Origin: Natrinema ejinorense
Lineage (GTDB): Archaea; Halobacteriota; Halobacteria; Halobacteriales; Natrialbaceae
Reading direction: 5' to 3'
Assembly (NCBI RefSeq): GCF_002494345.1
Contig: NZ_NXNI01000001.1
Span: forward strand, 1,178,001 to 1,242,000
DNA length: 64,000 nt
Shown: piece after piece, positions 4,882-16,076 of the stretch
Numbering within the stretch: the stretch's first letter is position 1
Layout of the letters: every line of letters begins with the position of its first letter
The notes under the pieces: model-generated
Told to the model about the DNA's origin: nothing
What the model saw: only the letters and a program-made list of their open reading frames with translations
Databases searched by the model: none
Made by a program: the position numbers and the translations under genes

Positions 4882-5146
4882 CGGGTTTCCATGTGTCGCG
4901 AACGGTCGTCTCGGTTGGGTGATCGACCGGCAGAACTCGTTCCGGCGAGGACCGACTCGAGTGGCAGGTCCGCGGTGAGCGGCCGATCACCCGACGACAG
5001 GGGGCCGAAACCCGTGCTGGCCACACGGTCGACTGGATGGGTATTTAAATGACCACGATATACGGGGTTAGGCTGAATGGATTATTATGCTGTGGGAACC
5101 GTCGCGATGGTTGATCATATGTCCACCTCTATATCCAGATAGGACA

Positions 5147-6235
5147 ATGACCCAAACTCAAATCAGTCGACGACGGGCGATGCAGGCGATCGGGGCGACC
5201 GGCGCGCTGGCGGTTGCCGGCTGCCTCGGTGAAAGCGGAGCGGAGAACGACGCTGAAACCAACCAGTCGGCCGCTACAGACGGGCTGCCGGCAGCGAAGG
5301 CGGTCGACGTCGACCGGATCGCGCGGGATCCGACGGACATCCCCCCGCCGGTCGACTGGAACGAGCCCCGCGAGCACGACGTGACGGTCGAAACGGTTCG
5401 GCGGACGGCCGAGATCGAGCCCGGCGTCACGTTCGAGTACATGACCTTCGGCGGGCAGGTGCCGGGGCCGATGATCCGCGTCCGGCGCGGTGACCGCGTG
5501 AACCTCACGTTCGACGTCCCGGAGGACCTGAACATGGCGGCTCACAACATGGACTTCCACGCGGTCTACGGCCCCGGCGGCGGAGCCGAGGCGACCACGA
5601 TCGCACCCGGCGACGACCCGGCCCGGATCAGCTTCACCGCCGACTACGCCGGCGTGTTCATCTACCACTGTGCGATCCCGAACATGGATCAGCACATCAG
5701 TTCGGGGATGTTCGGCTCGATCCTCGTCGAGCCCGAAGACGGCCTCCCCGAGGTCGACCACGAGTACTACCTCGGCCAACACGAGATCTACACCGACGGC
5801 GACGTCGGCGAAGCCGGCCACCACAGCTTCGACTTCGACGCCATGCTCGAGGAGTCGCCGACCTACGTCGTCTTCAACGGCCAGGCCTACGGCTTCACCG
5901 AGAACGGCGTCGGGCCCATGACGGCCGAAACGGGCGACACCGCACGCGTGTACTTCGCCAACGGCGGGCCCAACCTGTTGAGCTCGCTTCACCCCATCGG
6001 CAACGTCTGGAGCCGCTACTACCGCGACGGCGACCTCCTCAGCGAGCCCGACCTGAACATCGAGACCGCGCCCGTCGCCCCCGGGACGACCACCGCCGGC
6101 GAGCTGGAGTTCCCCGTCCCCGGGCCGGTCAAAATCGTCGACCACGCGCTGACGCGGGCCACTCGCCGCGGTGCCCTCGCCGTCATCGACGTCGACGGCG
6201 AGCCCACTCGAGACATCTACGACGAGGACCCGTAA
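5147..6235 (+). CDS. nirK: Copper-containing nitrite reductase (NO-forming)
   Basis: A 362-residue periplasm-type enzyme that reduces nitrite to NO, the second step of denitrification. It starts with a Tat/lipoprotein signal (SRRRAMQ, lipobox AVAGC, Cys26), so it is exported folded and lipid-anchored. Two cupredoxin domains are seen. Type 1 copper ligands are His133, Cys175, His183 and Met188; type 2 ligands are His138, His174 and His333; the catalytic pair is Asp136 and His282. All are present. ATG 5147 is chosen because the Tat motif follows directly, although the frame is open from 5087. A cupredoxin gene follows 57 bp downstream, and the NO-reductase-like operon is about 0.9 kb further on. 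Confidence 0.95.
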   Translation: MTQTQISRRRAMQAIGATGALAVAGCLGESGAENDAETNQSAATDGLPAAKAVDVDRIARDPTDIPPPVDWNEPREHDVTVETVRRTAEIEPGVTFEYMTFGGQVPGPMIRVRRGDRVNLTFDVPEDLNMAAHNMDFHAVYGPGGGAEATTIAPGDDPARISFTADYAGVFIYHCAIPNMDQHISSGMFGSILVEPEDGLPEVDHEYYLGQHEIYTDGDVGEAGHHSFDFDAMLEESPTYVVFNGQAYGFTENGVGPMTAETGDTARVYFANGGPNLLSSLHPIGNVWSRYYRDGDLLSEPDLNIETAPVAPGTTTAGELEFPVPGPVKIVDHALTRATRRGALAVIDVDGEPTRDIYDEDP

Positions 6236-6292: not shown

Positions 6293-6880
6293 ATGACGTT
6301 TATTTCCCGTCGCACCGTGCTTCGATCGGCAGCCTTCGCGGTCGGCATCGGCCTCGCGGGCTGTCTCGAAGACGTCGCCGACCGCTCGAGCGACGGCGAC
6401 GAGCAGCCGCCCGAGAACGCCGGCGAACCGGGGATCCCCGCCGAACGGATCACCGTTACGGCGAATTCTCGACCCAATCCCGAGTTCGAACCGCAGATCG
6501 TCCACGTCGTCCCCGGCGGGACCGTCGAGTGGCTCGTCGAGACCGGTCGCCACGATGTCACCGCCTACCACGAGGACGGCCACGGCCCGCACCGAACACC
6601 CGAGGGCATCGAGCCCTGGGGAAGCGACCGGCTGAGCGGCGTCGGCGCGGCCTACGAGCGCCCCTTCGAGACCGAGGGCGTCTACGACTACGTCGACACC
6701 CAGCAGGTCTGTACCTCCCACGAGGTCGCCGGCAACGTCGGCCGTATCGTGGTCGGCTGGCCCGACCCCGACGACGAACCCGCGATGGTCGACCCCCAGC
6801 CCGAACTCCCGTCGCAAGCCGCGCGAGCGATCGAGTTGTTCAACGAGGAAACTCGGCCGATCCTCGAGGAGGGGCCGTGA
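6293..6880 (+). CDS. Halocyanin-like cupredoxin lipoprotein with altered axial ligand
   Basis: A 195-residue secreted blue-copper-type protein with a twin-Arg N-terminus (SRRTVL) and lipobox LAGC (Cys24). The cupredoxin fold spans about 50-160. Copper ligand positions are His87 (GRHDVTAY), Cys140 and His143 (VCTSH). The position five after His143, where halocyanins and plastocyanins carry the axial Met (HxxxGM), is Asn148 (HEVAGN). The C-terminal 35 residues form an acidic and helical tail. It lies directly downstream of nirK and is a plausible electron donor to NirK or to the CuA enzyme. The Met to Asn change would be expected to alter redox potential; that is inference. Confidence 0.85.
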   Translation: MTFISRRTVLRSAAFAVGIGLAGCLEDVADRSSDGDEQPPENAGEPGIPAERITVTANSRPNPEFEPQIVHVVPGGTVEWLVETGRHDVTAYHEDGHGPHRTPEGIEPWGSDRLSGVGAAYERPFETEGVYDYVDTQQVCTSHEVAGNVGRIVVGWPDPDDEPAMVDPQPELPSQAARAIELFNEETRPILEEGP

Positions 6881-7073: not shown

Positions 7074-7085
7074 CGAATATGTTCG
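7074..7085. promoter_or_regulatory. CGAA-N4-TTCG palindrome, probable NarO-type operator
   Basis: A perfect CGAA-TATG-TTCG inverted repeat 70 bp before the SCO1 start codon, followed by a weak TATA-like CTTTAG near 7117-7122. This half-site spacing is the one described, from memory of the literature, for NarO, the regulator of anaerobic denitrification genes in Haloferax volcanii. Its position in front of the NO-reductase-like operon supports anaerobic induction. I found no exact copy before nirK. Confidence 0.5.
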
Positions 7086-7154
7086 CCCCCTTCTAAGGGA
7101 GCGGGAATCCTGGCGGTGCTTTAGCGCACCGAACGACGAGGTTCAGTTACAACT

Positions 7155-7931
7155 ATGACCCCAACACCTACCCCAATCGACAGGCGAACGCTCCTGCGCG
7201 CGGCGGGCACGGCGGCGATCGGCGCATCCCTCGCGGGCTGTTCGCAACTGGGTCGGTCCAGCGAAGCGGAGGACTCCCTCGTGCTCGACCCGCCGGAGAA
7301 CCACGATCGGATCGCGGACGCGGACCTCCCGCACCCGATCTACGGGGAAGCGATTCCGGAGGCGACAGTCCCGGCCCCGCTGCACGACCGGACGGTCACG
7401 ACCACGGAGTTCACCGGGAAGCGCCACCTGATGCTGACGTTCATCTACACGAGCTGTACGACCGTCTGTCCCGGCCTGACCGCGGCCCTGCGGCGCGTCC
7501 AGGCCGATGCGATCGAGGAGGGGTACGCGGACGAGATCGCGTTCCTCCCGATCACCTTCGACCCCGAGCACGACACCGCCGAAGTCCTCGAGACCTACGG
7601 CAAGGACTACGGGGTAGACTTCGACGCCGACAACTGGTACTTCCTGCGGCCGGAGACGCCCGAGGACGCCGAGGCGGTCGTCGAAGACACGTTCGGCGTG
7701 GCGTTCGCACCGAGCGACGGGGGAGACGGTGACGGGATGAACGGAAGCGACGGAATGGGCGACGAGATGGACGACAGCAACGGCCACGGCGGCCACGCTC
7801 GCCACTTCGTCCACACGTCGTTGATCCTGATCGTGAACAAGGACGGTCTCGTCGAACGCTCCTACACGGGCGGCTCCCCCGGCGGGAACGAGATCGTCGA
7901 GAACGCCCGCACCGTCGTCGAGGGGTGGTGA
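7155..7931 (+). CDS. SCO1/SenC family copper chaperone lipoprotein
   Basis: A 258-residue exported copper chaperone that loads the CuA site of the downstream subunit II. It has a Tat-like signal with lipobox SLAGC (Cys29), the thioredoxin-fold copper motif CTTVC (Cys101, Cys105) and the partner His220 (FVHTSL). Between strands, residues about 188-217 form an insertion rich in Met, His, Gly and Asp that looks like an extra copper-collecting loop. It is the first gene of a six- or seven-gene operon, and the spacing to the next gene is only 3 nt. The full set of SCO ligands makes the assignment firm; its client is inferred from context. Confidence 0.92.
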   Translation: MTPTPTPIDRRTLLRAAGTAAIGASLAGCSQLGRSSEAEDSLVLDPPENHDRIADADLPHPIYGEAIPEATVPAPLHDRTVTTTEFTGKRHLMLTFIYTSCTTVCPGLTAALRRVQADAIEEGYADEIAFLPITFDPEHDTAEVLETYGKDYGVDFDADNWYFLRPETPEDAEAVVEDTFGVAFAPSDGGDGDGMNGSDGMGDEMDDSNGHGGHARHFVHTSLILIVNKDGLVERSYTGGSPGGNEIVENARTVVEGW

Positions 7932-7934
7932 GCC

Positions 7935-8465
7935 ATGCGCCGTCGAGAGGTCATCGCGGGTACCGCCGGCCTCGCCGCTCTCGGCGGCGGCGCGATCGCC
8001 GTCGGCGAGTGGAACCCCCTCGAGAGCGGCGCGGCCGTCGATCCGATCGAGCTCGAGACGATCGACGCGCCGGGGAGCGAGGCCGGAACCGCGACGGTGC
8101 CCGAACGCGGTCGGGTGACGTTCGTCGAACTGTTCGCCACCTGGTGTACCGTCTGTCAGGACATGATGGAACCGCTCGGGCAGGTCCACGACGATGTCGA
8201 CGCGGACGTCCAGTTCGTCTCGGCGACCGGCGAACCGATCGGGAACACCATCACCCGCGCGGACGTCGCGGACTGGTGGCGCGAGCACGACGGGACCTGG
8301 CCCGTCGCCCTCGACGCCGATCTCGAACTGACGGAAGCGCTCGACGCCTCGGGCGTCCCGTACGCGTTCGTCCTGGACGCGGACAACGTCGTGACCTGGT
8401 CCGGTCGGGGGCGGAAGTCGCCCGACGAGATCCGATCGGCCATCGACGACGCCGGAGGTGAGTGA
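7935..8465 (+). CDS. TlpA/ResA-like thioredoxin domain protein
   Basis: A 176-residue membrane-anchored or exported thioredoxin. The N-terminus MRRREVIAGTAGLAALGGGAI has a twin-Arg motif and hydrophobic segment but no lipobox Cys. The active site ATWCTVC places Cys71 and Cys74, and VPYAFVLDADN near 140-150 carries the fold's cis-Pro region. The likely job is keeping SCO1 and CuA cysteines reduced, fed by CcdA. It follows SCO1 by 3 nt and overlaps CcdA by 8 nt. Confidence 0.88.
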   Translation: MRRREVIAGTAGLAALGGGAIAVGEWNPLESGAAVDPIELETIDAPGSEAGTATVPERGRVTFVELFATWCTVCQDMMEPLGQVHDDVDADVQFVSATGEPIGNTITRADVADWWREHDGTWPVALDADLELTEALDASGVPYAFVLDADNVVTWSGRGRKSPDEIRSAIDDAGGE

Positions 8466-9129
8466 CGTGGCGGGTGGCGAACTCCTCGGGACGATGGTGT
8501 TCGCCCTCGGCGTGGGCGTGGCGACGTTCTTCTCGCCGTGTGCGTACGCGCTGTTGCCCGGCTACGTCGGGTACTACGTCGCTGCGACGGGCGAAGAAAC
8601 GACGCCACCGCTCTCGGGGACCCTCGCACGCGGTCTCGCAGCGGCCGCTGGCGCGATGGCCGTCCTCGGCTCCCTGTCTCTCGCCGCAGTCGTCGCCGGC
8701 GAGACGGTCGGACGAGCGGTCCCACTGCTCGAGTACGGTGTCGGCGTCGCGTTGATCGTGCTCGGCCTGTGGGTACTGTACGGCGGGAGCGGTGCCGTCC
8801 ACGTGCTTCTGCCCGAGCGCCGATCGACCGTCCTGGGGTTCGGGCTCTTCGGCGCGATGTACGCCCTCGCGGCGACGGCCTGTGTCCTTCCGGTGTTCCT
8901 GGGGCTGGCGTTTCGCTCGCTTCCCATGCCGCCACTCGAGACGGTGCTGGTGCTTGGAACGTACGCCGTCGGGTTCGGCACGCTCATGGTCGCAGTCACG
9001 GTCGCGACGGCGTTCGGGTACGCTCTCGGGGCCGGTCGCATCGCCAACTACGTCGACCGGGTGATCCGCGTCGCGGGGGTCGTACTGGTGATCGCCGGCG
9101 TCGGCCAGCTCTACGTCGCCGCGGTCTAA
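8458..9129 (+). CDS. ccdA: CcdA-type thiol-disulfide membrane transporter
   Basis: A 223-residue protein with about six membrane helices. The redox pair is Cys28 (FFSPCAYALLPGYVGYY) and Cys142 (ATACVLPVFLGLAF), each in the proline-flanked context typical of CcdA/DsbD. It carries reducing equivalents from cytoplasmic thioredoxin to the outside partner encoded just upstream. The start is GTG 8458, overlapping the thioredoxin stop. CcdA, TlpA and SCO together make a CuA assembly kit. Confidence 0.9.
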   Translation: MSDVAGGELLGTMVFALGVGVATFFSPCAYALLPGYVGYYVAATGEETTPPLSGTLARGLAAAAGAMAVLGSLSLAAVVAGETVGRAVPLLEYGVGVALIVLGLWVLYGGSGAVHVLLPERRSTVLGFGLFGAMYALAATACVLPVFLGLAFRSLPMPPLETVLVLGTYAVGFGTLMVAVTVATAFGYALGAGRIANYVDRVIRVAGVVLVIAGVGQLYVAAV

Positions 9130-9318
9130 CGTCGGCCCGCTCACGCTCCCGTTTTCGCCCGGTCGTGACGACTAGTCCCGCTCCACCCGTGACTGCAGGC
9201 GTGGACCGCCACTAGCCGAGCCGCCATGGTCGAAGCGCCGTCGAATCCTCACTCTGAGGGAATATGTGCGGGACAATGGATATGCAAGTACCACGACGAC
9301 TCCCGGCTGAATAGAGCT

Positions 9319-9468
9319 ATGCCTTCGTCACACTCGCGTGAATCGGAACCGGTGATGCAACGACTCTACGATCGGATCTGGCTGCTCGCGGCAGCAGCGC
9401 TCGCGTTCTTCGCCGTCTCCTACGTCGCGTGGGGATGGATAGACGTGTTCTCGGTTCCCATGGGGTGA
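9319..9468 (+). CDS. Small single-TM subunit of the heme-copper complex (CbaD/subunit IIa-like)
   Basis: A 49-residue protein: a short polar N-terminus, then one helix (IWLLAAAALAFFAVSYVAWGW) and a short tail. It ends 4 bp before the CuA subunit gene. ba3-type oxidases carry a comparable one-helix subunit IIa that supplies the helix missing from subunit II. That function is inferred from size and position. The frame is open back to 9226 but the upstream part lacks conservation-like features; ATG 9319 is preferred. Confidence 0.65.
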   Translation: MPSSHSRESEPVMQRLYDRIWLLAAAALAFFAVSYVAWGWIDVFSVPMG

Positions 9469-9472
9469 TTCG

Positions 9473-10012
9473 ATGACGTCACCAATCAAACCACCTGACG
9501 GAAACTGGTGGAATCAACCGGTCAACAGACGGGAGTCGATCTGGCTGGGGCTCGGTGTCGGCTGGTCGCTCATCCTCTTCGGGTGGATGAGCGCCTGGAC
9601 GCGCGTCGGGGATCAGAACCCGATCGGCGAGACGTTCCGAATCGAGGGCGACGAGTACCGGGAAAAGATGAGCGACTACAAGGACCGGGCAACCGAGACC
9701 GACGACGGCCTCGTCCCGCCCGATCGAGACGTGTACCTGCAGGCGATGCGCTTCCAGTGGGACGGCGCACCGGTCGTGCTCGAGGCGGGAACGGAGTACG
9801 ACATCCACCTCAACTCCCTCGACGTCCAGCACGGCTTCTCCCTCCGACCGGAGGACGCGCTCAGCAAACAGATCAATCTGCAGGTGTTGCCGGGGTACGA
9901 GTGGGTCGTCCCCATGACCTTCGACGAGCCCGGCACCTACCACATCATCTGTAACGAGTTCTGTGGACAGGGCCACAGGAGCATGCACGGCACGATCGTC
10001 GTGGAGGAGTGA
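9473..10012 (+). CDS. CuA-containing subunit II of a ba3-like heme-copper enzyme
   Basis: A 179-residue protein with one N-terminal helix (about 24-42) and an external cupredoxin domain. All CuA ligands are present: His120 (VQHGF), Cys160, Glu162, Cys164, His168 and Met171 (CNEFCGQGHRSM). The single helix and short length match subunit II of B-family (ba3) enzymes. It accepts electrons from a cupredoxin or other donor and passes them to subunit I, which begins 6 bp after it. Confidence 0.92.
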   Translation: MTSPIKPPDGNWWNQPVNRRESIWLGLGVGWSLILFGWMSAWTRVGDQNPIGETFRIEGDEYREKMSDYKDRATETDDGLVPPDRDVYLQAMRFQWDGAPVVLEAGTEYDIHLNSLDVQHGFSLRPEDALSKQINLQVLPGYEWVVPMTFDEPGTYHIICNEFCGQGHRSMHGTIVVEE

Positions 10013-10017
10013 TATCG

Positions 10018-11763
10018 ATGACACACAAACTCGACGTTCTCGGTCTGTTCGACAACGAGTATCGCGACGACGGCTTCCGAACCTGTTCGGTTACGGGGCT
10101 CGAGGTCCACCGCACCATCGACAACTACGTCAAACTGTTCGGTCTCACGGCGGTCATCGCCCTGCTGTTCGGCGGTATCTTCGCCTTTACCGTCGCGATG
10201 ACCCGCTGGGAAGTTGTCGGGCTGCTCGAGCCTGCCGACTTCTACACGCACCTCAGCATGCACGCGTGGAACCTGCTGATCTTCTGGATGGTGTTCATGG
10301 AGATCGCCATCCTCTACGTCGGCGGCCCGATGGTGCTCGGCAGACGGCTCCCGATCACGATGGTCGCGAAGGCAGGATGGGCCGTCATGGTCGGGGGTGC
10401 CCTGCTGGTCAACTACGCCATCTGGACCACCGAACCACCCAACGAAGCACCGCTGTTGACCGCCTACGTCCCGATGCCCATCTCACCGTTGTTCTACGCA
10501 GGTGCGATAATCTTCATCCTGGGCACCGTCGTTGCGGCGTTGCCCTTTTTCGTGACGATGTGGTACGAGAAGCGCGAGAATCCGGGGAAGACGCTCCCGC
10601 TCGTCAGCTTCGCCGCGTTCGTCACGTCGATCATCGCCGTCGAGGCGCTGGTCGGCGGCCTGTTCGCGTTCGTTCCCACCCTGTTCTGGCGACTCGAGAT
10701 GATCGAGTGGTGGGACGCGGCCTGGTACCGCCAGATGTACTGGATCATCGGCCACGGGACCCAGCAGATCAACCTCGTGGCGATGATCGCGGTCTGGTAC
10801 TTCCTGACCCACGTCGTCGCCGGCGCGGAGGTCGTCAGCGAAAAGGTCTCACGGACCGCGTTTATCCTCTACCTGTTCTTCATCAACCTCGGGGCGGCAC
10901 ACCACCTGCTGTCCGACCCCGCGGTGTCGACCGGCTGGCGGCTCTGGAACACGTCCTACGCGTTCTACGGGGCGACGTTCGCGAGTCTGATCCACGCGTT
11001 CGCCATCCCGGCGGGGATCGAGGCCGGACGACGCAAGCGGGGGAAAGGCGGCGGCCTGTTCGGCTGGCTGACGTCCGCTCCCTGGTCGAACCCGGTGTTC
11101 TCCTCGACGATCTTCTCGATCATCCTGTTTGGCTTCCTCGGGGGGATCACGGGCGTCATGATGGGCCAACTCCAGCTCAACATGACCTGGCACAACACGT
11201 TCGCGACGGTCGGTCACTTCCACGCCACGGTCGTCCTCGGGACGACGGTCGCGTTCATGGGGCTGATCTTCTTCGTGATCCGGACGATGTTCATGCGCCA
11301 GTACATCTCCGAACGGCTCGCATCGATTCAGCCGTTCTTCTACTCGGCTGCGATGGGTGTGGCCGTCCTGATGATGATGTACGTCGGCATCCTCTATGGG
11401 GTTCCGCGCCGAACTGCGGAAGTCGTCGAGAACATTCCCGGGACGGAATTCAGCCTCTCGGCCGCATCGCCGCTGTTCGCGGTCTTCGGGATCTTCGCCC
11501 TGCTCGCCATCGCGGGCGGCGTCCTGTTCGTCGTCGTGGCGGTCGGGTCGCTGGTCTTCGGCGACCGCGTCGAGAACGGCGAGGAGAACGCGGATCTCGT
11601 CGCCGACGGCGGCCTCGGGATGGCACAGGATCCGGACGACCCGGTCCACGCCTATGAAATGCGGGGCACGTTCGTCCTCTGTCTGGTCTTCCTCGCGGCG
11701 TTCGTGATCACGTACCTGCTGAACTGGTATCTACTGACCCAACTCTGGTCGATCGGCGCCTGA
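10018..11763 (+). CDS. Heme-copper superfamily catalytic subunit; probable CuA-type nitric oxide reductase
   Basis: A 581-residue protein with 12 or more helices. Low-spin heme His82 (helix II) and His402, high-spin heme His400 (GHFHA), and CuB ligands His246, His295 and His296 (AAHHLL) are seen. The segment after the first CuB His reads GHGTQQINL. Oxygen reductases have HPxxY here, with Tyr at +4 cross-linked to His; this protein has Gln250, so the redox Tyr is missing. Loss of that Tyr is a mark of NO-reducing members, and Bacillus azotoformans CuA-NOR is a ba3 relative. Adjacent nirK, SCO and the NarO-like site agree. An ATG at 10018 is preferred to GTG 10009. NO specificity is inferred. 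Confidence 0.8.
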   Translation: MTHKLDVLGLFDNEYRDDGFRTCSVTGLEVHRTIDNYVKLFGLTAVIALLFGGIFAFTVAMTRWEVVGLLEPADFYTHLSMHAWNLLIFWMVFMEIAILYVGGPMVLGRRLPITMVAKAGWAVMVGGALLVNYAIWTTEPPNEAPLLTAYVPMPISPLFYAGAIIFILGTVVAALPFFVTMWYEKRENPGKTLPLVSFAAFVTSIIAVEALVGGLFAFVPTLFWRLEMIEWWDAAWYRQMYWIIGHGTQQINLVAMIAVWYFLTHVVAGAEVVSEKVSRTAFILYLFFINLGAAHHLLSDPAVSTGWRLWNTSYAFYGATFASLIHAFAIPAGIEAGRRKRGKGGGLFGWLTSAPWSNPVFSSTIFSIILFGFLGGITGVMMGQLQLNMTWHNTFATVGHFHATVVLGTTVAFMGLIFFVIRTMFMRQYISERLASIQPFFYSAAMGVAVLMMMYVGILYGVPRRTAEVVENIPGTEFSLSAASPLFAVFGIFALLAIAGGVLFVVVAVGSLVFGDRVENGEENADLVADGGLGMAQDPDDPVHAYEMRGTFVLCLVFLAAFVITYLLNWYLLTQLWSIGA

Positions 11764-11800: not shown

Positions 11801-12520
11801 ATGACACATTCCGAATCCGACGCGACCGCATCGCCACTTCAGTTCCTCAGGGGGGTCATCGGCCAGGCCTGGCGGGACCTCTTGAGCGTCTACTACGCGA
11901 ACACGCCGATCTGGCGGCTGTTCAAGAGCGTCGGTTTGCTCTTTTTCGGCTTCTTTTGCTGGTCGGCCTCGAGTCTCGTCCTCTCCTATGGCATCGAGTG
12001 GACGATCCTCCAGTACGTGAGGGCCTACGGGTTCGTACTCATCCTCTGGGGGCCGCTTACCCACGCCGTGATCGTCCCGCTCGTGATTCGCCTCCGACGG
12101 ACGGCCGAGCGACCGATCGTCCGAACGATCGCCCGGAACGGGTCGAAGATCAACCTCTCGATCTTCCTGACCATCGTCCTGATCCTGGGAACGGCACCCA
12201 TCTCGCCGATGTTGCTCGACTTTCAGGCGGCCCTCGAGACCGACTCGGGGGCGGACATCGACCCCGATCTCTCGTGTACACGGTCGGATGGCACCGTCTC
12301 CTGTTCGCTCTCCGATCCCTCCGGAATCGACAGCGTCGTGGTGACCAGCGGCAACCGCGAGATCGAACGCGTCGAGGAGCCCCCCTTCGAGTTCACGTTC
12401 CGTGAGAACGACCTCGAGGAGGTAGTCGGGCAGAAGGAATTCGTCGTCGAACTCCGCGACGAGGACGGCGAGACGCTCCGCCGATACCGGCGGTCCGTCT
12501 CGTCAGTCCCCGAGGCGTGA
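11801..12520 (+). CDS. Membrane protein with external Ig-like domain, NOR-operon associated
   Basis: A 239-residue protein not assigned to a known family. Three hydrophobic stretches (about 42-62, 72-98, 118-140) are followed by a C-terminal external domain of about 90 residues. That domain has two Cys (CTRSDGTVSC) and a beta-sandwich-like pattern (SVVVTSGNREIE, EFTFRENDLEE, EFVVELRDEDG). It follows the catalytic subunit by 37 bp on the same strand, so it is probably cotranscribed. An assembly or anchoring role for the NO-reductase complex is a guess from position. Confidence 0.7.
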   Translation: MTHSESDATASPLQFLRGVIGQAWRDLLSVYYANTPIWRLFKSVGLLFFGFFCWSASSLVLSYGIEWTILQYVRAYGFVLILWGPLTHAVIVPLVIRLRRTAERPIVRTIARNGSKINLSIFLTIVLILGTAPISPMLLDFQAALETDSGADIDPDLSCTRSDGTVSCSLSDPSGIDSVVVTSGNREIERVEEPPFEFTFRENDLEEVVGQKEFVVELRDEDGETLRRYRRSVSSVPEA

Positions 12521-15988: not shown

Positions 15989-16076
15989 CTCGTGGTCGAT
16001 ACTCGCGGACGCCGGGTAGCCATGGTGCCGAATACGTTCGTCCGCTCGCTCACCGCACCGCCCTCGGTCGCCGCAC

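Follow-up and report, generated by a model that had tools for sequence, protein, structure and literature searches.

What does a perfect CGAA-N4-TTCG palindrome do in front of copper-handling genes that lie beside an oxidase-like enzyme? The window, a 64,000-nt stretch of the Natrinema ejinorense genome, holds such a site at positions 7074-7085. The answer that we consider very probable is that it forms the distal half of a composite denitrification promoter controlling the SCO-thioredoxin-CcdA genes, the genes of an eNOR and of a copper ATPase being switched in parallel. The features of the locus, in window coordinates, are these:

5144-6235, plus strand: NirK copper nitrite reductase (TIGR02376 above cut-off)
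6293-6880, plus strand: halocyanin-like blue copper protein (PF00127 just above cut-off, TIGR03102 below)
7074-7085, plus strand: proposed distal operator of the SCO promoter, CGAATATGTTCG (read in the sequence, matching the consensus, at a conserved place)
7091-7107, plus strand: second inverted repeat, or proximal element, TTCTAAGGGAGCGGGAA, that is TTCTAA-GGGAG-CGGGAA (fixed columns and spacing in 21 SCO promoters)
7120-7123, plus strand: TATA-like TTTA, 12 nt after the proximal element
7155-7931, plus strand: SCO1/SenC-family copper chaperone (PF02630, 2e-14, above cut-off)
7935-8465, plus strand: thioredoxin-like protein (redoxin; TlpA/ResA/StoA type; PF08534 and PF00578 above cut-off, NF041202 and the ResA/TlpA models below)
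8458-9129, plus strand: CcdA/DsbD-like membrane protein (follows the thioredoxin-like gene in relatives)
9259-9270, plus strand: putative eNOR-operon site GGAATATGTGCG, degenerate with 2 mismatches, at -60 to -49 of 9319
9319-9468, plus strand: small protein, first gene of the eNOR operon (in 49 of 51 eNOR loci; start codon inferred)
9473-10012, plus strand: CuA subunit II (PF00116; CuA ligand motif)
10018-11763, plus strand: heme-copper subunit I, eNOR type (PF00115; Gln at the position of the cross-linked Tyr)
11801-12520, plus strand: conserved eNOR-linked protein (in 48 of 51 loci, two of the other three being cut at a contig end)
13484-15988, minus strand: copper-type P1B ATPase (TIGR01511 above cut-off)
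16029-16040, minus strand: putative copper ATPase site, reading CGAACGTATTCG on the minus strand, at -52 to -41

Three of these assignments do not come from family models. The protein at 8458-9129, which we take from a motif to be CcdA/DsbD-like, gave no Pfam or NCBIfam match in the profile search, nor did a longer reading of the small protein (9226-9465). The same holds for 11801-12520, which by its constant company is likely to be an unrecognised partner of the eNOR.

Is the oxidase-like enzyme an oxidase at all? When subunit I is aligned with the Thermus ba3 oxidase, GHGTQQ replaces the GHP..Y that bears the cross-linked Tyr. The active-site Gln is found in all 52 subunit I sequences (GHGTQQ in 35, GHGSQQ in 17), and the C, E, C, H and M of the subunit II CuA motif CxExCGxxHxxM are invariant in 52 of 52. 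In the accessible text of PMC8756737, eNOR is a NO reductase of the heme-copper superfamily with an active-site Gln and a cupredoxin subunit II, and its presence in Halobacteria is already published. Our enzyme resembles that description in its Gln at the place of the cross-linked Tyr, in its CuA-bearing cupredoxin subunit (9473-10012) directly upstream, and in its halobacterial host; thus we predict that it is an eNOR-type NO reductase. A regulatory link to a CGAA motif, unlike these features, is not described in that text. The first-pass annotation had read the 7074 site as support for a NO reductase rather than an oxidase. That preference holds as a prediction, and what favours it is the Gln in 52 of 52 sequences, independently of the site.

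In fact, the genome encodes a second NO reductase, a qNor with a composite promoter of the kind described below, as well as nosZ. This enzyme is of the haloarchaeal qNor/NorZ kind (PMC8400030, as far as accessible) and differs from the eNOR in that its subunit I is fused with a NorB cytochrome c-like domain in one protein. The same 2021 survey gives qNor, in its accessible part, as the sole NOR class in haloarchaea, a statement that the eNOR loci contradict. PF14710, taken as a marker of respiratory nitrate reductase, found no match here; only the E. coli and Bacillus subtilis controls matched it, and the result is therefore silent on archaeal Nar.

How far does the palindrome itself rise above what a GC-rich genome produces by chance? 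It is present and perfect, as had been claimed, with the sequence CGAATATGTTCG, and it is intergenic: it falls in the 274-nt gap between the halocyanin-like gene (end 6880) and the SCO1/SenC gene (ATG 7155), spanning -81 to -70 relative to that ATG. The loose pattern CGAA-N4-TTCG is weak evidence, too weak for annotation. The window holds 8 copies against 3.07 in shuffles, 1 of 100 shuffles being as high, and the 4.48-Mb genome holds 327 against 28 for the backward-read pattern. The abundance in the genome, together with two window copies that sit within coding genes of the cluster (5389 and 10078), is what speaks for a chance palindrome. The specific forms behave differently. The published haloarchaeal denitrification operator consensus CGAAYATDKTYG, which the 7074 site matches, occurs at 18 places in the genome with a backward control of 0. 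The strict palindrome CGAAYATRTTCG occurs 9 times, where a first-order model built on the window predicts about 1.0 in the genome and 0.00003 in an upstream region of 150 nt. With genes called by a simple codon-usage finder, 8 of the 9 fall outside them. The neighbours of these 8 include the SCO gene, the qNor (PF22085 and PF00115), a DUF2249 gene, the HTH_10 protein P0001, a ferredoxin/NrfD pair, a CGCGG RiPP precursor, a 73-aa protein and the HTH_10-like P0002. The proposed scan of the genome thus came out in two ways: in its specific forms (CGAAYATDKTYG, CGAAYATRTTCG) the site stands far above chance, and we reject a chance origin for the strict motif, though not for the loose pattern.

Conservation points the same way. 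Of the 125 family genomes 122 gave an SCO match, and we compared the best 30 of these loci, the window's own included. The site lies at the aligned place in 21 of the 30 promoters, with no mismatch in 10, one in 4, two in 3 and three in 4; at most one mismatch is thus seen in 14 of 21, against 0.17% of dinucleotide shuffles, small probabilities of this kind being overstated because related genomes are not independent. Orthologous promoters had been named as a check, and they keep the site where it was expected. As an explanation of the 7074 site we practically dismiss chance. Among the 9 promoters that lack the site, a short gap of 20-141 nt separates SCO from the preceding halocyanin gene in 5, and the other 4 belong to distant SCO genes (44-46% identity). 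No clean rule for its presence emerges, because the SCO gene at L098, 141 nt behind the halocyanin gene, is without a site whereas others with 111-154 nt have one, and because the distant SCO genes at L104-L106 (44-47%) nonetheless show a recognisable copy.

The sequence is also a known one. According to the accessible part of PMC10062603, the Haloferax mediterranei nirK promoter carries a 12-mer identical to CGAATATGTTCG (the nirp motif, Table 3), which bears out the view that the 7074 site is the haloarchaeal denitrification motif. The nirK, nor and nosZ motifs of that organism lie 79, 66 and 69 nt before the ATG, similar to the distance seen here, and the idea that the site is rightly placed for control of the operon at 7155 stands. 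There, a change of the first base lowered promoter activity, significantly for nor and nosZ but not for nirK, and the nar copy of the motif behaved differently. The NarO regulon of Haloferax volcanii, known to us through citing papers such as this one, is a further comparison: the same source says that in several genera of haloarchaea the promoters of narGH, nirK, nor and nosZ carry a similar motif. H. mediterranei has the motif but no NarO homologue (PMC10062603, accessible text), and the presence of the motif is therefore by itself no pointer to NarO. RNA-seq in the accessible part of PMC11218638 places 25 motif-bearing promoter regions in front of differentially expressed genes, and that text describes the identity of the binding protein as undisclosed. 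What distinguishes our case from H. mediterranei is the position before SCO-thioredoxin-CcdA beside an eNOR, and the presence of a second repeat at a fixed distance, which finds no mention in the accessible part of PMC10062603.

Which genes, then, does the site control? To answer this question, we read the upstream regions at the eNOR loci, 51 from named genomes plus the window, the closest named relatives of the window's eNOR being Natrinema species. Fifty regions before the first eNOR gene were readable; a site with at most one mismatch is present in 31 and with at most two in 39, and in 32 of these 39 it starts 67-44 nt ahead of the gene start. The 7 bacterial loci are all without a site, which makes it 39 of 43 for the archaeal regions. 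In the window, sites with at most two mismatches number 15 against 8.15 in shuffles, only about twice as many; for the eNOR site at 9259, which has two mismatches, it is therefore conservation that carries the assignment, GGAATATGTGCG being unchanged in 5 relatives (L019-L023). Before the ATPase, 23 of 33 regions have a site with at most one mismatch and 21 of these sites begin 50-56 nt before the start. By the same measure NirK has 6 of 21, SCO 5 of 15, halocyanin 1 of 15 and the internal-operon control, gene 11801, 0 of 49, and shuffles gave 0-0.6%. The NirK and ATPase counts leave out 4 loci each, where the match starts past residue 60 or less than 100 nt lies upstream. The regulon is not uniform: halocyanin rarely has a site, the window's nirK (5144-6235) has no CGAA motif within 220 nt upstream, the best match there having 4 mismatches, and no CGAA-N4-TTCG lies within 1.5 kb on either side of the genome's nosZ. 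The promoter of the nos operon may be further away than that. The leader of the window's nirK does contain a stretch, TTGATCATAYGTCCACC, common to the Natrinema relatives L019-L021.

These separate sites bear on how the genes are transcribed. The first-pass annotation had placed the 7074 site before an SCO/CuA operon. SCO is indeed directly downstream, but SCO and CuA probably belong to separate operons, since a gap of 189 nt with a second conserved site (9259-9270) lies between the end of the CcdA-like gene at 9129 and the first eNOR gene at 9319. One could still imagine a single long transcript from the 7074 site through SCO, thioredoxin and CcdA into the eNOR genes, all of which lie on one strand across a gap that can be read through. 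We judge a single operon from 7155 through the eNOR unlikely, given that only 8 of 51 eNOR loci showed an SCO gene shortly upstream (6 of the remaining 43 end early) and that the start of the eNOR operon has its own site, with at most two mismatches, in 39 of 50. Direct control of the CuA and reductase genes by the 7074 site thus finds no support. Because the eNOR and the ATPase have sites of their own, the 7074 site most likely controls SCO-thioredoxin-CcdA.

A second element accompanies the site in the SCO promoters. Its consensus is about TTCYYG-N5-CRGGAA, with a left arm that is degenerate and weak in the window. Across the 21 SCO promoters the left arm starts with TTC in 19 and CTC in 2, the right arm ends 33-35 nt past the beginning of the first site, and then comes TTTA or ATTA, 12 nt further on in 20 and 13 nt in 1. 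Judged by this position, the TTTA at 7120-7123 would be the TATA box. The symmetry of the proximal repeat is imperfect in many promoters and copies, and scoring of repeat arms was mixed, the proximal repeat being the best-scoring one in only some promoters; the case for it is therefore built on the fixed columns and spacing. Searched as a composite pattern (CGAAYATRTTCG, 4-8 nt, TTYY, 7-10 nt, GGAA), the arrangement turns up 127 times, spread over 80 of the 125 family genomes, and the complement control only once. A similar pattern is found in 93 of 391 genomes sampled across the class, 70 of them among the 102 from the family and 23 among the 289 others, with a control of 0. The strict motif alone gives 410 sites in 117 of the 125 family genomes (backward control 13), which means that most of its copies are without the second repeat as defined. 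At the eNOR loci, considering sites with at most two mismatches, the second element follows 6 of 6 SCO and 1 of 10 NirK sites but none of the 39 eNOR, 29 ATPase or 5 halocyanin sites. There are thus two kinds of promoter, with and without the second repeat, since it follows the SCO sites but not those of the eNOR and the ATPase. We found no mention of the second element in the accessible literature on the motif, a search outside which the NarO paper, a possible source, lay.

What do composite promoters precede elsewhere? Within the family we inspected 44 composites in 33 loci. The commonest gene behind them is the ferredoxin of a ferredoxin/NrfD pair (17 of 44), followed by one DUF2249 gene (8, the class at 66-168 nt, of which two were run against Pfam), another DUF2249 gene at 393-500 nt (4), NirK (4, the one that was run having TIGR02376 above cut-off), qNor (2) and SCO (1). 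For 8 composites no downstream gene was found, and called genes contain 2 of the composites. At L111 and L113 the NirK label comes from blastp clustering alone, the frame examined having no family match. Among loci outside the family we read 21 with a composite, 12 of which have it before a multicopper oxidase of about 380 aa. We call these genes NirK-like multicopper oxidases, not NirK, because TIGR02376 fell below cut-off in all 6 of the 12 that were run. Single outside composites precede qNor, nosZ (a second locus with identical sequence), a ferredoxin and a ThiS-like gene; those at L155 and L160 stand before halocyanin-like or blue copper genes; and one has as its sole neighbour a relative of P0001, 699 nt off. 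Going by sequence, the composite promoters precede denitrification-related genes wherever these can be named. What the DNA itself shows is the elements with their spacing and conservation, and which genes stand behind them.

For binding, activation and signal we infer the following course. In the layout CGAAYATRTTCG, 5-7 nt, an inverted repeat TTCY...GRGAA with its centre two helical turns or about 20 nt downstream, 12 nt and a TATA-like box, a dimeric regulator of the denitrification regulon would bind CGAATATGTTCG at low oxygen or with N-oxides present. This regulator and a factor on the proximal repeat would jointly recruit TFB/TBP and so switch on SCO-thioredoxin-CcdA, whose products would supply CuA sites with copper and hold the cysteines of these sites in the reduced state. 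These copper-insertion helpers probably serve the eNOR. The eNOR operon (small protein, CuA subunit, subunit I and 11801) and the copper ATPase would respond through their own simpler sites near the start, such that the NO-reductase module would be switched on together without a single transcript. Relative to the cited literature, in its accessible parts, the link to the copper module of the eNOR and the composite layout appear to be new.

Who would occupy the two elements? We hold it to be evenly balanced whether an HTH_10 regulator different from NarO, for example P0001 (C1:1923423-1924067), occupies the distal operator. The promoter of P0001 itself carries the site 77-66 nt upstream of the start. 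Of the 125 family genomes, 121 contain a match to P0001 (E up to 1e-20), and 116 of these 121 have at least one strict site against 1 of the 4 without a match. Two of those four, however, are incomplete (66% and 53%), and the weaker matches may be paralogues, given that the genome encodes 45 HTH_10 domains. P0002, the other candidate, likewise has an upstream site. A 42% relative of P0001 in Haloferax larsenii lies between a gene annotated as cbb3, which we take for qNor, and a multicopper oxidase gene, a setting that resembles that of the H. mediterranei candidate E6P09_00735 in the nirK/nor cluster (accessible part of PMC11218638). A synteny search for NarO on plasmids found relatives of P0001 and P0002, and no nameable NarO among them.

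The proximal repeat at 7091-7107 might belong to no separate regulator. It could be a contact of the extended BRE/TFB kind, or the protein on the first site could have a second, weaker site here. Its position directly upstream of the TATA-like box at constant spacing speaks for this reading; against it are the absence of the repeat behind the eNOR (0 of 39) and ATPase (0 of 29) sites, and its half-sites, TTC...GAA being everted relative to GAA...TTC. We keep this reading in mind with some doubt. About as tentatively, we envision a two-operator code of haloarchaeal denitrification genes. Two regulators would read CGAAYATRTTCG and an inverted repeat of about TTCYYR...GYRGGAA that lies two helical turns further down, with 12 nt left to the TATA box; the eNOR and ATPase promoters would be single-operator forms reading one signal. 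If so, the qNor, nosZ, nirK-like, DUF2249, ferredoxin/NrfD and copper-insertion genes would need both signals, the two regulators sensing for example oxygen and NO or nitrite, and the eNOR and the copper ATPase would answer to one.

The composite denitrification promoter that we favour for the 7074 site would extend the targets of the motif to the alternative NO reductase and its copper machinery. It also makes the identity of the motif-binding protein directly testable, with a compact 34 bp DNA probe for candidate HTH_10 regulators. The handling of NO and N2O by haloarchaea bears on gas release from salt lakes.

The modules of this locus do not always travel together. At the bacterial eNOR loci L044, L046, L047, L049, L059, L061 and L066, subunit I is 61-67% identical and the core gene order is kept (at L066 gene 11801 was not detected), and all seven are without the archaeal motif; enzyme and control thus appear to have been separated in transfer. 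At L019, from Natrinema salsiterrestre, eNOR subunit I is 97% identical to that of the window, yet the 7.3 kb before the small gene hold no SCO, thioredoxin or halocyanin match, which suggests that the helper module moves independently.

Several further strict sites deserve a word of their own. One, on contig C2 (L073, 4594-6731), is flanked by P0002 and by a membrane protein of 420 aa that partially matches ccoN. Another stands 50 nt upstream of a CGCGG-family radical-SAM-modified RiPP precursor (TIGR03995; L072, 4128-4483), possibly a denitrification-linked RiPP. Finally, at L070 (2731-6091) a cluster of DUF2249, the HTH_10 gene of P0001 and ferredoxin/NrfD carries three strict sites within 1.3 kb.
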